A stretch of DNA of 60,023 nt from an uncultured Azospirillum sp. (lineage in GTDB: Bacteria > Pseudomonadota > Alphaproteobacteria > RF32 > CAG-239), in assembly GCA_947301965.1 (NCBI GenBank), contig CAMYUM010000008.1, forward strand, positions 1-60,023. Direction: 5' to 3'. Position numbers and translations under genes: made by a program. The first letter of the stretch is position 1. Each line of letters begins with the position of its first letter. This document shows, piece by piece, positions 22,713 through 28,392 of the stretch. The notes beneath the pieces are model-generated. The model saw only the letters and a list, made by a program, of their open reading frames with translations, was not told where the DNA came from and ran no database searches.

Positions 22713-22802
22713 GGCAAAGTACATTTCTGCCAAAAGGGGAACCCTGATGCACGTTTATCGTAATAATTTTATAGATTGATTAATGTACATGGGTTATAGT
22801 GG

Positions 22803-22865
22803 TGTCAGATTTTGGCATTTCTATGAACTCGCCCTGTTGCCAACTAAGTGCAAAAATGCTATAAT
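22803..22865 (+). promoter_or_regulatory. Palindromic operator and promoter of the MORN_2 gene
   Basis: TGTCAGATTTTGGCA (22803-22817) is a copy of the 15-bp imperfect palindrome also found at 25262 and 26915. Nineteen bases downstream begins TTGCCA (22837-22842), a 17-base spacer follows, then TATAAT (22860-22865). This is a near-consensus sigma-70 promoter 22 bases before the start codon of the 22888 gene. Confidence 0.7.
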
Positions 22866-22887
22866 TAGTTGTAAGAAGGAGGGTAAG

Positions 22888-23937
22888 ATGGAAAAGAAAA
22901 TGAGTGAAGCTTATAAAAAATATCGCGAACTTTTGGAGATATGGCATAATTCCAGTCCAAGTGAATTAGAGAAAAAACTTTCAATAGATGATTGGCAATG
23001 TCTGTTAAAACATGCCGGTACTGCACAGGCAAAAATCTATTGCTCCCAATGGATAGAAAAGTTACAAAAGATGGGTAGAGACCATGATGAAAAAATTGAA
23101 TGGTATGACTTTGATAATATATATATTGAAACTGGTAAATTGTATGATCAAGAAGGGAATTTGATTATTCCGGGCCACTACACGCATCCTAAAAACGGCA
23201 CAATGAAAATTTATACTCGCAAAAAATATCTGTTTTTAGAAATAACCTACAAAAATAACAAAAAGCACGGAATGACCAGATGTTATTTTGAAAATACCAA
23301 GCATCTGGCATGGGAGCAAAATTACACCAATGATAAATTGGACGGAATATGCAAACGCTATAACAAAAGCGGAAAATTGATACACGAAGATCCTTTCGTA
23401 AAAGGGGTAAAGAAAGGCATTGAGCGGACATATAGCAAAAGCGGACGACTTCTTTGTGAAGAAGAATATGACAACAATGTTAAAAACGGCATATCACGAA
23501 CTTATTATCAAAACGGTAATGTAAAGCAAGAGAGTACATATAAAAACGGCAAGAAATATGGTAACACCAAAAGATATGATATTACCGGCAAGCCCAAGAA
23601 GCTAACACCGAAAAAAAGCCCTCAAATAACCGAGTATTCTCGGACATTATACAAAAGTAACGACGGACTTACAATCACTGCCGAATTTACGGAAGACAAA
23701 AGATTAGATATTGTATATTACGACCTTGGAGGAGATTATTTTGAAAGCTACGAACACCACCAGGTCTTAACCGCCGAAGCAACGAAAAAGCTTTGTAAGA
23801 TATTCAAGTGCGAGTTGCCTGATTTATTACGCTACGTTTCCGAAAAAATAGACTGGAGCAGAGGATCAACGGAGCCGTTCTACGATTTTTGTAAAAAACA
23901 TAATTTGAAATACGAGACATGTACTTGGACAGACTGA
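22888..23937 (+). CDS. MORN_2-repeat (YwqK-like) protein
   Basis: The 349-residue soluble protein has a helical N-terminal part (about residues 1-75) and then tandem MORN_2 repeats, for example LYDQEGNLIIPGHY, KNNKKHGMTRCYFE, NDKLDGICKRYNKSGKLI, VKKGIERTYSKSGRLLCEEEY, VKNGISRTYYQNGNVKQES. A C-terminal domain after residue 250 (TITAEFTEDKRLDIVYYDLGGDYFESYEHH) is unlike MORN and I do not recognise it. Such repeats occur in the YwqK family, some members of which are called antitoxins; that role is not shown here. AAGGAGGG before the ATG at 22888 fixes the start, excluding an upstream in-frame ATG at 22783 that would read through the operator and promoter. Confidence 0.8.
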   Translation: MEKKMSEAYKKYRELLEIWHNSSPSELEKKLSIDDWQCLLKHAGTAQAKIYCSQWIEKLQKMGRDHDEKIEWYDFDNIYIETGKLYDQEGNLIIPGHYTHPKNGTMKIYTRKKYLFLEITYKNNKKHGMTRCYFENTKHLAWEQNYTNDKLDGICKRYNKSGKLIHEDPFVKGVKKGIERTYSKSGRLLCEEEYDNNVKNGISRTYYQNGNVKQESTYKNGKKYGNTKRYDITGKPKKLTPKKSPQITEYSRTLYKSNDGLTITAEFTEDKRLDIVYYDLGGDYFESYEHHQVLTAEATKKLCKIFKCELPDLLRYVSEKIDWSRGSTEPFYDFCKKHNLKYETCTWTD

Positions 23938-24253: not shown

Positions 24254-25204
24254 TTAGTCTTTCCAGACTTTGCGTTTATTAAAATCCTTAGGTTTGATTA
24301 CTTTTACATGCTTGCCCCAGGTATAAAGGTGCCAGTCCATTTCTCTTGCTCCACCGGCGTGGAATTTGACTGTTAGCGTGCCGTCGGCGTTAAAATGCAT
24401 CTTTTGGGTGGGATGAAATATATACTTTGCGGCATCTGTGGCAACTTCTTTATCAAACCGCCATTCAACATCAAAAGGCTCTTCCTGATATACGCCGAAA
24501 GACTGCTGACTGAAGTCCTCAAGTGAAAATTCCGGGTCTCGTGTAAAATATTCATCTGTTACATTAATTTTCTGAATGTTGTTCAGGTCAAAATGGCACA
24601 TAGCTTTGCGTTGCGTATGCCAAGCAATCAAATAATGTTTATTGCCATACAAAAAACCATAAGGGTGAACGGTTCGCCAACCGTCTTTTGACTTTGATTG
24701 GTATTTTATCTTAATAACTTTGCAGGCAATGACTGCATTACGTAGTGTCTGCATAAATTCTTTTTTGACTGCGATTCTCGGGCCAGGGCGCAGAGCATAA
24801 CCTTCGGCTTCTAACAAAACTTCGGCATCGGGTTCGATTCGTGTGCGCGATTCGTTACTCATTGAAGCCTTTATCTTGTGCATTATCATCTCAAGCGAAT
24901 CAACATCTTGAGGATTTTTCTTTTTCATTAGTTTTATTGCGTTCTGTAGGGCATTGAGCTCATTGAGTGAAAATCCGACATAATTATTGAGTGCCCCTTG
25001 CGGAATATACCAACGTTTGGTGTTATGGGCTCCGCTGATTTCTTTGATTTGCGGGAACTGCTCCTTAACCATGTCTTTCATACGGATAGCCGTGCGCCTG
25101 GAAACGCCGAATTTTTGCACAATATCAGCAATTGATACGCCGGCATCGGCATTTTGCATCCACAATGATAGCTCTAAGAGTTTTTGTGTCTTTTCATAAA
25201 ACAT
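24254..25204 (-). CDS. WYL-domain transcriptional regulator
   Basis: The 316-residue protein has an N-terminal helix-turn-helix (SIADIVQKFGVSRRTAIRMKDMV), a central WYL domain with RTVHPYGFLYGNKHYLIAWHTQRKAMCHFDLNNI, and a C-terminal WCX-like extension (DVEWRFDKEVATDAAKYIF, MDWHLYTWGKHVKVIKP). WYL regulators sense ligands such as nucleic acid fragments or cyclic nucleotides; BrxR and CapW are examples that bind inverted repeats and control defence loci. The ATG at 25204 has GGAGGGG just upstream and TATAAT (minus strand, 25230-25225) lies in the leader. A 15-bp palindrome lies 58 bases upstream, with copies before two other operons in this island, so this is the best candidate to bind them. 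Confidence 0.88.
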   Translation of the reverse strand: MFYEKTQKLLELSLWMQNADAGVSIADIVQKFGVSRRTAIRMKDMVKEQFPQIKEISGAHNTKRWYIPQGALNNYVGFSLNELNALQNAIKLMKKKNPQDVDSLEMIMHKIKASMSNESRTRIEPDAEVLLEAEGYALRPGPRIAVKKEFMQTLRNAVIACKVIKIKYQSKSKDGWRTVHPYGFLYGNKHYLIAWHTQRKAMCHFDLNNIQKINVTDEYFTRDPEFSLEDFSQQSFGVYQEEPFDVEWRFDKEVATDAAKYIFHPTQKMHFNADGTLTVKFHAGGAREMDWHLYTWGKHVKVIKPKDFNKRKVWKD

Positions 25205-25261: not shown

Positions 25262-25324
25262 TGTCAGAATCTGGCAATACTAGAGTTTGGGCATATTGAC
25301 ACTAATTTTCTGCTGTAGTAAGCT
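25262..25324 (+). promoter_or_regulatory. Palindromic operator and promoter for the ncRNA/DUF6994 unit
   Basis: TGTCAGAATCTGGCA (25262-25276) is identical to the copy at 26915. Nineteen bases downstream begins TTGACA (25296-25301), with a 17-base spacer to TAAGCT (25319-25324). The site also lies upstream of the divergent WYL regulator and could serve both directions. CTAATTTTCTGCT in the spacer nearly repeats the sequence at 26934-26946. Confidence 0.6.
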
Positions 25325-25329
25325 GTTGT

Positions 25330-25734
25330 TAACTTGAAGCTCAGGGGAGAGAGCATTCCTCATTTGACCCTGACCAAGGGCGGTTTCAGATGCTTGGGAT
25401 GTCTGCCCCAGTGTAATAGGGGAGAATTGGACTCCACCAGCACTGCGGTGGCGACATATCCGTTGCCGAGTTGTAGTTTTAACCTGGTCACCAACAGGTA
25501 TGTTGTTGGAGATTTAGAGATTATTACAGGGACGAAAGTCGCTGTCTAAGGGGTCGCTTCGGGCGTATGGATAAGGGATGAGATGGACTCATCAGCAGCT
25601 TCCCCCCCTTTATTTAACCGTTTCCTTACACCCCTGGATTTGTAACCAGGTCGGTCTGAGGGGCAACCCCCGTATCCCCCGGATTTGTAGCCGGTGTGGC
25701 GTGTTGGGGGTTTTAGCTCTTGGAAGGAGGTAAT
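25330..25734 (+). ncRNA. Candidate structured RNA / 5' leader, GC-rich
   Basis: These roughly 400 bases hold no convincing gene but are clearly more GC-rich than the flanking genes, a common sign of structured RNA in AT-rich genomes. Hairpins can be drawn along it: CCACC/GGTGG (25434-25438 with 25447-25451), ACCTG/CAGGT (25482-25486 with 25495-25499), ACAG-GAC/GTC-CTGT closed by a GAAA tetraloop (25526-25545), GATGAG/CTCATC (25577-25593), CCTGG/CCAGG (25633-25650) and CCGG/CCGG (25679-25694). The last two present nearly the same eight-base loop, ATTTGTAA and ATTTGTAG. CCCCC (25676-25680) can also pair with GGGGG (25706-25710) before TTTT, an attenuator-like shape. It matches no RNA family I can recall (not RNase P, tmRNA or 6S). 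Confidence 0.5.
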
Positions 25735-25812
25735 ATGTCTACCTTGCGTTACTTTCAAGGCTCCCAGCAGGTGGACATATCGCCTGGTCTGGAACTTAAT
25801 CTAAGTTCGTAG
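25735..25812 (+). CDS. Possible 25-residue leader peptide
   Basis: An ATG follows GGAAGGAGG at ideal spacing, the strongest ribosome site in the island, and opens a 25-codon frame ending TAG at 25812. The start codon and ribosome site lie at or in an 11-pair stem (25733-25743 with 25770-25780), so translation could control folding. The peptide (MSTLRYFQGSQQ...) resembles nothing known to me. The DUF6994-like gene starts 28 bases later. It may be a regulatory upstream ORF or chance. Confidence 0.4.
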   Translation: MSTLRYFQGSQQVDISPGLELNLSS

Positions 25813-25840: not shown

Positions 25841-26593
25841 TTGATTACATCGATTAAAGAAATTGATATCAATTTTGATTTTACAACAGATACCCGAGAC
25901 TATTGGTTGGGTATTGGTGCAGACCCTGATAGTGCCAGTCCAACTCTTCAAAGATACCAAAAACTACTATGGTCCAAGAAACTTCCAAATGGGGAAACTA
26001 TGGATTTGAGTGAAGGTTGTGGATCTAATTATTTATATTGGAAGAATTTTAGATTTGGTTCCGATTCAATTATTAATATGTATATGCATCATAAAAGTGC
26101 CTATATACAGGATTTATTGCTAGAAATAAAAAATACAATAACCGATTATAATAAATTTAGAGAAAACTACCTCAGAAAAACATATACAATTGGTGGTGAA
26201 TTAATTTTTCCCAAAAATGGAGCACATTCAATAAATTCACGAAGAGGCACGGATAAACTGATTAGAGATAGATTTGACTTAACAATTGAATGTATACGAA
26301 GGTTTTATAAAAATGAAGATAGTCCTTTAAAAGAAACCCTTGATAAAAATAAGGAGTTTTTCGACTTATTTGTTGATTTTAAAGGATATATTAATTACTT
26401 CCTGTTGCAAGATATGGTAAGTCAAGATTATTCTTCAACAAATTGTTTTCTCGATATTGCTGATTTTTCAAGAGACCCTTATCCAAAAGACACTACAGAA
26501 TGGCATACATTATATAATAAGCAGATGCAATTTTTAGAAAAAAGAAATCAAAGAATTTTTGAATATATACATAAAAATAATGCATTGGGTTAA
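25841..26593 (+). CDS. DUF6994-like protein
   Basis: The 250-residue soluble protein matches, from memory, the DUF6994 pattern: FDFTTDTRDYWLGIGADPDSASPTLQRYQKLLWSKKLPNG at the start (quoted in part: DPDSASPTLQRYQKLLWSK), YIQDLLLEI, TIGGELIFPKN, SINSRRGTDKLIRDRFDLT, and LFVDFKGYINYFLLQDMV near residue 195. Function is not known. I prefer TTG at 25841, because AAAGGA lies seven bases upstream, over TTG at 25823, which precedes that site. It is strongly AT-rich, unlike the leader RNA just before it. It is probably expressed from the operator-promoter at 25262. Confidence 0.65.
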   Translation: MITSIKEIDINFDFTTDTRDYWLGIGADPDSASPTLQRYQKLLWSKKLPNGETMDLSEGCGSNYLYWKNFRFGSDSIINMYMHHKSAYIQDLLLEIKNTITDYNKFRENYLRKTYTIGGELIFPKNGAHSINSRRGTDKLIRDRFDLTIECIRRFYKNEDSPLKETLDKNKEFFDLFVDFKGYINYFLLQDMVSQDYSSTNCFLDIADFSRDPYPKDTTEWHTLYNKQMQFLEKRNQRIFEYIHKNNALG

Positions 26594-26639: not shown

Positions 26640-26891
26640 ATGAAAAAATATGATTACTACTACAAAAACTCTCTTTACCGAGTATCTGGCGATGAGACAG
26701 AAAGATATGCAGGAGGCGGAGAGTGGAAAAGCGTAACCTGCCAGCTTGCAGGTAGGGTAGACCCAAAAAGCCCAGACTACGACTATGGTGAAACCACTAA
26801 AGAAACGGAGCAGGAGGCGATGAGAATTATGAAGTCAGAAGATGATATTCTTGAACTTCGTCGTAAAAATGGTTGGTATGATAAGAATTGA
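26640..26891 (+). CDS. Small hypothetical protein
   Basis: An 83-residue ORF starts with ATG behind a weak purine-rich region. The product is Tyr-, Lys- and Glu-rich (KYDYYYKNSLYRVSG), with SVTCQLAGRVDPKSPDYDYG in the middle, no signal peptide and no membrane helix. I do not recognise it. A partial palindrome, TCAGAATCTGG (26601-26611), lies 29 bases before the start and resembles the island operator core. Confidence 0.55.
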   Translation: MKKYDYYYKNSLYRVSGDETERYAGGGEWKSVTCQLAGRVDPKSPDYDYGETTKETEQEAMRIMKSEDDILELRRKNGWYDKN

Positions 26892-26914: not shown

Positions 26915-26976
26915 TGTCAGAATCTGGCAAAACTAAATTTTCTGCTCTTGCATGATAAAAACACCACTTGTAAGAT
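26915..26976 (+). promoter_or_regulatory. Palindromic operator and promoter of the three-gene operon
   Basis: TGTCAGAATCTGGCA (26915-26929) is identical to the copy at 25262. Eighteen bases downstream begins TTGCAT (26948-26953), with a 17-base spacer to TAAGAT (26971-26976). This promoter lies 24 bases before the first gene at 27001. Confidence 0.65.
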
Positions 26977-27000: not shown

Positions 27001-27339
27001 ATGTTGCAAGATTTGCGAGAAATAAACTGGCTAGCATTTATGCGCTGGGTAGGCTGGAAAGTTATTCAAATTTTTTGTGTGTTCCTTTGTTATTGGGTTT
27101 GTTACACCTTGTCAGGTGAACTCGGACTGGCAGGGGTGCAACGAGCCGTCTTTACGACCTTTATAGGTTCCTGCGGTCTATGTTTTTTACAATTGGCCGG
27201 AGTTTTGCCCAAAGACCTTTTAGAAAACAGAATACTTGATAAAATAATGCCAAAGTTTATGGATTTTATCATCTTCACCGGACTAATATTTTTTGCAATT
27301 TTGATACCTGTTATAATGTATTTTGAGACCCATCAATAA
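27001..27339 (+). CDS. Small membrane protein, first gene of the operon
   Basis: The 112-residue protein has three hydrophobic stretches: VIQIFCVFLCYWVCYTL, RAVFTTFIGSCGLCFLQLAG, and FIIFTGLIFFAILIPVIMYF. GTGAGGTG lies before the ATG. It belongs to no family I recognise. It is followed after 48 bases by the DnaB-like gene. A small multi-pass protein heading an operon of this kind could be an effector or membrane anchor, but nothing in the sequence proves that. Confidence 0.7.
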   Translation: MLQDLREINWLAFMRWVGWKVIQIFCVFLCYWVCYTLSGELGLAGVQRAVFTTFIGSCGLCFLQLAGVLPKDLLENRILDKIMPKFMDFIIFTGLIFFAILIPVIMYFETHQ

Positions 27340-27387
27340 ATGCAAGAGGCTTTTCTTGTACGTGCGAATAATTTGAAAGGGTGTAAA

Positions 27388-28392
27388 ATGGCTATAAAGT
27401 ATAACGATGAGCAAAAGCAACAGAACAATAAAAGTTTTCATAACAACCATATTGCCCAGATACTTCAAAATTATGATATAGATTTGGCATTCAAATACCA
27501 AAATCCTGATAAACTGCGTGGCATATCGACTGGTTTAACTGCTCTTGATGCCAAACTTGATGGTTTGTGTCCCGGCGATGTTGTGCTCATTGGTGGGCGT
27601 CCGGCAATGGGTAAAACTTCCCTTGCTATCAATATGGCTCGTAACATAGCGACAGATTTTTCTGCTCAATATCAGCAAAATCCCGATGATAATAAATGTG
27701 TGGTATATATAGGGCTCGAATATTCTTCCAAAAAGTTTGCAGAACGCCTGGTCGGTATGGAAGCCTCAATACCTGTATATCAAATGCGAGGTTCTTACAT
27801 ACGCGAAAATTATGATCGCATAGTTACAACCGAATATACTTTGGAAAAATTGCCACTTTACTACTATGACAACATTTATAACATTGATGATATCGCAGAC
27901 GAACTGCAAAATATCCGGCGGGAACATCAGATTGGAGCGTTATTTATTGATTACTTACAACTAATTACCCCAAGTCTTGATGGACCTTGTGATGACGTTA
28001 TGTGTCAGATTAAAGAACTGGCAGTTAGATTCGAAATTCCGATTATCGTTCTTGCCCAGCTGGACCGCAATCTTGAAAGTAGGGCAGATAAGCGCCCCAT
28101 GTTATGCGATATTCGAGGTTTTGAAAGTCGCCACCCCTTATGTGCTAATAAGGTTCTGTTCATATACCGTGAAAGTTATTACTTGATTAATAATGAACCT
28201 CTCCCGCGCCGCAATGAGAGCCCAGAGAAGTTTGAAAAACGCCACGCAAGCTGGGAAAAACAGTACAAAGAAACAAAAAACTTATGTGAGATTATAATTG
28301 CCCAAAACAGCGACGGCTACGCCGGAATAGTGAGAGTTTGTTTCGATCCTGTCACCGGAGTTTTTAATAACCTATACGGTGAATATGATTAA
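27388..28392 (+). CDS. DnaB-type RecA ATPase lacking the DnaB N-terminal domain
   Basis: The 334-residue protein is a stand-alone replicative-helicase ATPase domain. GISTGLTALDAKLDGLCPGD leads into Walker A GGRPAMGKTS (about residues 69-78), Walker B is ALFIDYLQL (about 184-192), and AQLDRNLESRADKRPMLCDIR aligns with DnaB SQLNRxxExRxDKRPxxxDLR. The DnaB stretch that follows, RESGxIEQDAD, is replaced by GFESRHPLCAN, so a region that contributes to inter-subunit contacts is altered. The roughly 150-170-residue N-terminal collar domain that binds primase is missing; only about 45 residues precede the core. The ATG at 27388 has GAAAGGG upstream. The FtsZ-like gene follows after 17 bases. It may interfere with or replace DnaB, or be an ATPase of a defence or plasmid-like system. 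Confidence 0.85.
   Translation: MAIKYNDEQKQQNNKSFHNNHIAQILQNYDIDLAFKYQNPDKLRGISTGLTALDAKLDGLCPGDVVLIGGRPAMGKTSLAINMARNIATDFSAQYQQNPDDNKCVVYIGLEYSSKKFAERLVGMEASIPVYQMRGSYIRENYDRIVTTEYTLEKLPLYYYDNIYNIDDIADELQNIRREHQIGALFIDYLQLITPSLDGPCDDVMCQIKELAVRFEIPIIVLAQLDRNLESRADKRPMLCDIRGFESRHPLCANKVLFIYRESYYLINNEPLPRRNESPEKFEKRHASWEKQYKETKNLCEIIIAQNSDGYAGIVRVCFDPVTGVFNNLYGEYD

Follow-up and report, generated by a model that had tools for sequence, protein, structure and literature searches.

The gene-free stretch between a WYL-domain regulator gene and a DUF6994 gene is well supported, by comparison with related sequences, as a modular structured RNA in which at least six modules could be resolved. The array in the window holds six modules of four unlike kinds (A, B, K, and U) that are structurally unrelated to one another, and for nearly every module we found single copies in other genomes, most of them antisense within phage or prophage genes. 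One possible reading, to which we give slightly less than an even chance, is that one long transcript concatenates at least six modules, mostly with single phage counterparts, and that this transcript is controlled by the WYL regulator and acts in trans on phage RNAs. The window, meaning the whole 60,023-nt stretch of DNA that was analysed, comes from an uncultured Azospirillum sp. genome of 1.29 Mb in 21 contigs; other genomes are given as G numbers. An initial annotation of this DNA had suggested a new structured RNA driven by a palindrome-linked promoter, either a regulatory leader or an RNA component of a defence system. Compensatory changes in the helices and the absence of an Rfam match agree with a new structured RNA, which is linked to an operator and lies in a defence locus. 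The aspect it missed is modularity, with modules that occur singly in phages. The features of the window are listed below.

24254..25204, minus strand: WYL/WCX-domain transcription regulator (Pfam WYL 3.9e-12, WCX 1.4e-7), divergent from the RNA
25262..25277, plus strand: operator palindrome TGTCAGAATCTGGCAA, found by pattern search; identical site at 26915-26930, variant at 22803-22818
25296..25324, plus strand: putative array promoter (TTGACA, 17-bp spacer, weak -10 TAAGCT)
25336..25409, plus strand: module A, stem TCAGGG/CCCTGA (25341-25346 with 25368-25373)
25352-25356 with 25390-25394, plus strand: loop-distal pairing AGCAT/ATGCT of module A, a pseudoknot
25409..25445, plus strand: module B, hairpin GGAG[AATTGGA]CTCC within stem CAGTG/CACTG
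25441..25512, plus strand: module K1, two hairpins (model match 49.6 bits)
25454-25460 and 25497-25503, plus strand: K1 loops ACATATC and GGTATGT, a 7-bp kissing pair with one G-U
25513..25620, plus strand: structured stretch outside the named modules, with the GAAA stem and a GATGAG/CTCATC hairpin
25622..25664, plus strand: module U1, hairpin with 8-nt loop ATTTGTAA (R3 match 58.9 bits)
25667..25709, plus strand: module U2, hairpin with 8-nt loop ATTTGTAG (R3 match 31.3 bits)
25715..25792, plus strand: module K2, two hairpins (model match 77.4 bits)
25733-25739 and 25774-25780, plus strand: K2 loops ATATGTC and GACATAT, exactly complementary
25735..25812, plus strand: 25-codon ORF; related units have no ATG or an early stop
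25841..26593, plus strand: DUF6994 gene (PF22507, 2.9e-72), probable start TTG at 25841 after AAAGGA

The stretch had been described as GC-rich amid strongly AT-rich genes. Its GC content is indeed 0.50-0.525 across 25300-25799, but strongly AT-rich applies to the downstream flank only, as the DUF6994 gene is at 0.27-0.29 and the upstream WYL gene at 0.37-0.46. The twin hairpins with ATTTGTAR loops were recovered (two matches, at 25634 and 25679, against 0.23 expected in shuffles), and the GAAA stem and the CCCCC/GGGGG stem are both present in the predicted fold. The density of stems proved to be a weak argument, with a z-score of -1.29 on the plus strand and 12 of 100 shuffles folding equally well; for the minus strand, the free energy of the whole stretch gave z -2.76. 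Because the whole-stretch folding energy is unexceptional, the case for structure was made by comparison, and we accept the structure because of covariation rather than folding energy (z -1.3). Compensatory changes were found in the module stems of homologous units. A search of the window, arrays, and single copies against Rfam returned only tRNAs above threshold, and at permissive thresholds the best sub-threshold matches reached 16.5 and 14.9 bits where 83 and 44 are required. No match was obtained with blastn against phage and plasmid records.

Three further proposals of the initial annotation concern K2. A discrete RNA end near 25710 does not fit with a module that extends to 25792. The 25-codon ORF with a ribosome site exists, but a coding reading is doubtful given the related units, and the ORF is probably a by-product of K2. 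The 11-bp stem placed at the start of that ORF is part of K2, where the inner hairpin (98% paired) fits better; the four outermost pairs of the extended 11-bp form are disrupted in 2-6 of 15 alignment rows.

In the eight K units aligned, hairpin 1 has a 7-nt loop, ATATRTC or ACATATC, and the loop of hairpin 2 is complementary to it. The K model (R1) was built without this loop-loop helix, and searching with it added units in G466 (three in tandem), G455, G465, G020, and G045, and later in G464. Across a 16-unit alignment with 15 distinct sequences, the K structure is 97.8% paired, against 21-49% in slid controls. The kissing helix, which was left out of the alignment model, is 99% paired, with both-sided compensatory changes at three of its seven positions. 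Covariation in K1 is seen in alignment A3. Exactly complementary pairs of 7-nt-loop hairpins number 12 in the arrays and single copies, compared with 0.005 expected in shuffles, and K2 holds the only exact pair in the 60-kb window when both strands are scanned. The arrays of G009 contig 30 and G466 each carry three tandem K units in the same order, and units Kb and Kc of the two genera keep their order and pairing despite many compensatory stem changes, so the array RNA itself appears, from these sequences, to be maintained by selection. Whether or not the proposed function holds, the 7-bp kissing-hairpin modules are RNA motifs that are supported by covariation and new to Rfam.

The U model (R3) describes hairpins with the 8-nt loop ATTTGTAR, or with the variant loop AATYGGA (referred to as V). 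Outer and inner stems covary among 15 U units, with a covariation score of 0.376 against 0.08-0.16 in slid controls. For module A, all pairs of the stem (6/6) and of the loop-distal helix (5/5) hold across six sequences, and both helices show compensatory changes; they were chosen by eye and checked afterwards. The module B stem covaries among relatives from GGAG/CTCC to GAAG/CTTC to GAAA/TTTC, and its single copy has the loop GATTGGA instead of AATTGGA. The stretch at 25513-25620 is conserved in G002 and replaced in G009 (alignment A8), and no single phage counterpart of it was found, including by a pattern scan of viral contigs.

We identified nine arrays, spread over six genomes from two genera and mostly adjoining a WYL regulator and its operator; the large genome searches were run with stricter filters. 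Mosaics of the stretch occur in two genomes of the same genus, once in G009 (contig 37) and twice in G002 (contig 12), and G009 contig 30 holds a diverged version. The G009 contig 37 array is 97% identical up to ~25533; different pieces follow, and the terminal part of K2 closes it. On G002 contig 12, one copy reads U1-U2-K2, and the other reads A-B-K1-U1 followed by a different cargo gene. A complete array also lies on G002 contig 17 (6080-6560, minus strand; locus L034), near a tRNA and away from any WYL gene, with an operator, a promoter scoring 11/12, and a T run behind a hairpin.

The relationship of the U units to phage alleles bears on how such arrays arose. U2 of the window shares 31 of 33 core bases with the solitary unit in G047's LPD3 prophage gene, while U1 is nearest to G002 array units and matches any single copy at no more than 24/33. 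On G002 contig 17, the two U units agree with phage or prophage alleles in 32 and 31 of 33 bases but with each other in only 25, and the V unit of G009 matches a single G481 copy at 32/33. Overall, units of G002 contig 17, G009 contig 37, and window U2 stand at 31-32/33 to phage or prophage alleles and at ~25-26/33 to units of their own array. Because these units are nearer to phage alleles than to their array neighbours, the arrays look like collections assembled from different phage RNAs. K1, K2, U1, and A show only moderate similarity to the single phage copies found.

Most single copies have a recurrent setting. U occurs alone in three IMG/VR contigs (L072-L074), within genes of 2000-2400 aa, where it is antisense and placed where the LPD3 domain ends. 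It has the corresponding position in the G047 prophage gene (PF18798, 8e-17) and in G708, a member of another family of the class. A polyvalent gene of G481 carries V in antisense, a phage polyvalent gene of G451 carries B, and a phrog_5880-type gene of G465, probably also one of G045, carries K; A is antisense twice in a phrog_5880 gene of G433 and lies beside a terminase in G453. The copies in G403 and G476 lie outside recognisable phage genes. One promoter-bearing U unit on G403 contig 16 (L082) lies antisense to the 5' end of an AbiEi-like gene that has an AbiEii-like gene behind it, and so adjoins a defence-type toxin-antitoxin pair as assigned by eye. Sigma-70-like promoters with a 17-bp spacer were found for 11 of 11 single copies tested, 10 of which score 10-11/12; the G708 copy has a poor -35. 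Scans of viral contigs with the DUF6994 protein, the G465 phage protein, the K pattern, and the V pattern returned nothing.

The same LPD3 boundary holds unrelated hairpin RNAs in three other prophages (G037, G016, and G004), with promoters laid out in the same way (folding z ~-5). At the other LPD3 loci of this comparison, G047 excepted, no strong promoter was observed there. Since unrelated hairpin RNAs share it, the boundary looks like a phage site for variable small RNAs. A further hairpin RNA type with a covarying stem (CTACGGATTTATCTGTAG / CCGCGGATTTATCCGTGG; L115, L122) was also seen antisense at a prophage LPD3 boundary. Single copies are distributed more widely than arrays, reaching another family of the class in G708, and from this distribution, thinly sampled as it is, we infer that transfer probably ran from phage to host.

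WYL orthologues adjoin the arrays of G002, G009 (contigs 37 and 30), G466, G455, and G454, and both the gene and TGTCA-N5-TGRCA operators are present at the loci on G009 contigs 37 and 30 and G002 contig 12. The operator form recurs before arrays in relatives, including the one on G002 contig 17. The promoter of the window array has 9 of 12 consensus matches, which alone is not above chance; the other arrays have 9-11/12 in the same place. Regulation of defence islands by WYL proteins with inverted-repeat operators has been described (PMC9122601), and here the WYL regulator, bound at this operator, would control the array transcript. Several operator sites without K or U units stand before ordinary genes, and no K or U matches were found at sites on G009 C42, G466 C50 and C127, G002 C1, C4, and C9, and C4 and C10 of the source genome. 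The variant operator at 22803-22818 lies near the start of a MORN-repeat gene (22783-23937) and suggests a wider WYL regulon in the window. The window also encodes 83-aa and 112-aa proteins of unknown function and a DnaB-C-like ATPase (26640-26891 and 27001-28392); G002 and G009 retain the ATPase and the 112-aa protein, preceded there by an operator of their own. On G466 contig 50 (L105), CRISPR-like repeats (GTTTCACAATCCCC...TTGGGGCTTATATTAT) with differing spacers sit beside an operator-like site.

A mechanism can be sketched from this arrangement. Relief of the WYL repressor, for example by infection, would lead to the array RNA being made, and its modules would act in trans on the phage RNAs that they resemble. 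In the simplest case, they would pair with mRNAs of the phage polyvalent or internal-protein genes that harbour the phage copies in antisense orientation; alternatively, they could serve as decoys that compete with phage small RNAs for their partner. In effect, the cell would store in its genome a set of phage RNA elements directed at several lineages of phage. Because the modules are structurally unrelated, such a collection is favoured over a single effector reading repeats. Prophage RNA STnc6030, antisense to a tailspike gene, gives superinfection exclusion (PMC12197685). In its full form, the proposal is tentative: a non-CRISPR RNA immune repertoire in which phage antisense small RNAs are gathered in one WYL-controlled transcript that silences or titrates matching RNAs from several lineages of phage; the phages, for their part, would have hypervariable genes for small RNAs, set at fixed antisense positions in polyvalent or internal-protein genes. 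If true, bacteria would hold a heritable set of phage RNAs, separate from CRISPR and under a defence regulator, and phages would have a hidden variable small-RNA position antisense to these genes. Irrespective of the function, the relation between arrays and solitary copies yields a clear prediction, open to testing, of which phages each array should affect.

The gene behind the array invites two other explanations. DUF6994, for which the Pfam authors predict an HNH or type IV restriction nuclease-like fold (PMC11701544), is probably co-transcribed cargo: between K2 and the gene, the tool's criteria revealed no terminator and the plus strand no promoter-like site, so transcription probably runs through the RNA into the gene. 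Such read-through would suit the regulatory leader or attenuator of DUF6994 proposed by the initial annotation. However, arrays occur without a DUF6994 gene (G009 contig 37, G466, G454, and G002 contig 17), and DUF6994 relatives elsewhere, including those in Gastranaerophilales records, had no K module when searched with the K model, which together make a leader role unlikely. Cargo can also be missing altogether, as in G466, or the next gene may have a separate operator, as in G009 contig 37; we regard the leader as very improbable. An RNA of type III toxin-antitoxin character, with repeats inhibiting the protein encoded downstream (DUF6994 or other cargo), would match the order of promoter, structured repeats, and gene, the pseudoknot-like units, the defence context, and the three tandem K units of G009 contig 30 and G466. 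It is nevertheless improbable: the units within an array are unlike one another, the cargo varies between arrays (DUF6994, a 208-aa unknown protein, small proteins, or nothing), DUF6994 has relatives without a K module, and its predicted fold is HNH-like and not that of a ToxN-type endoribonuclease.

The main rival reverses the roles, making the array the working RNA of a host defence and the solitary phage copies RNA counter-defence mimics. The phage copies are solitary, have strong constitutive-type promoters, and lie within polyvalent-protein genes; Racrs are likewise solitary mimics of array units (PMC10651486), and the array sits in a WYL/GmrSD/DUF6994 defence locus, with a GmrSD gene downstream. 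One effector would hardly read all of the structurally unrelated modules, however, and no conserved protein partner lies beside every array (none was seen at that of G466). Single copies also spread more widely than arrays (G708), and other prophages bear unrelated RNAs at the LPD3 boundary with no known host array. On balance, we consider this reversal unlikely. A hotspot behind a promoter might instead gather functionless phage-derived hairpins, comparable to palindromic repeat elements, which would account for module replacement between strains, the several module types, and single copies antisense inside open reading frames. That too seems quite unlikely, since no multiplication of the units was seen in the genomes searched, K units of two genera keep their pairing through many compensatory changes, and an operator precedes the arrays.

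The proposed repertoire resembles several known systems in part. TIGR arrays also consist of short RNA units arrayed in bacteria and phages (PMC12045711), but the unit structure here (alignments A2, A3, and A7) lacks the two alternating 8-12-nt repeats with ~9-nt spacers, and a Pfam scan of ten neighbouring proteins found no Nop-domain Tas protein. Type III toxin-antitoxin RNAs (ToxI, CptI, AntiQ) share tandem structured units, pseudoknot-like contacts, and a position ahead of a gene; in contrast, the units here are 40-80 nt long and of several unrelated kinds. They do not form near-identical tandem repeats, K units being tandem only in G009 contig 30 and G466, and no conserved endoribonuclease toxin lies directly downstream of the arrays. 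The regulatory setting is that of BrxR/CapW, in which a WYL protein has inverted-repeat operators and a GmrSD-type neighbour (PMC9122601): judging by sequence, a WYL regulator with inverted-repeat operators before defence genes is present here as well, although one regulated product would be a non-coding RNA array. As with Racrs, single phage units resemble units of a host array (PMC10651486), but they resemble array modules rather than a CRISPR repeat, the host units are mutually unlike, and no Cas genes were noticed next to the array. Closest in kind are the prophage antisense RNAs (STnc6030 of BTP1, P22 sas, and P1 c4 RNA), small RNAs antisense to phage genes that are expressed from prophages and gain their specificity through base pairing (PMC12197685). 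The single copies, predicted to have their own promoters and antisense to phage genes, are by sequence of this type; what differs is that several unlike modules would be joined in one bacterial transcript beside a WYL defence-type regulator. The arrays may be a hitherto undescribed store of RNAs that derive from viruses and are turned against them.
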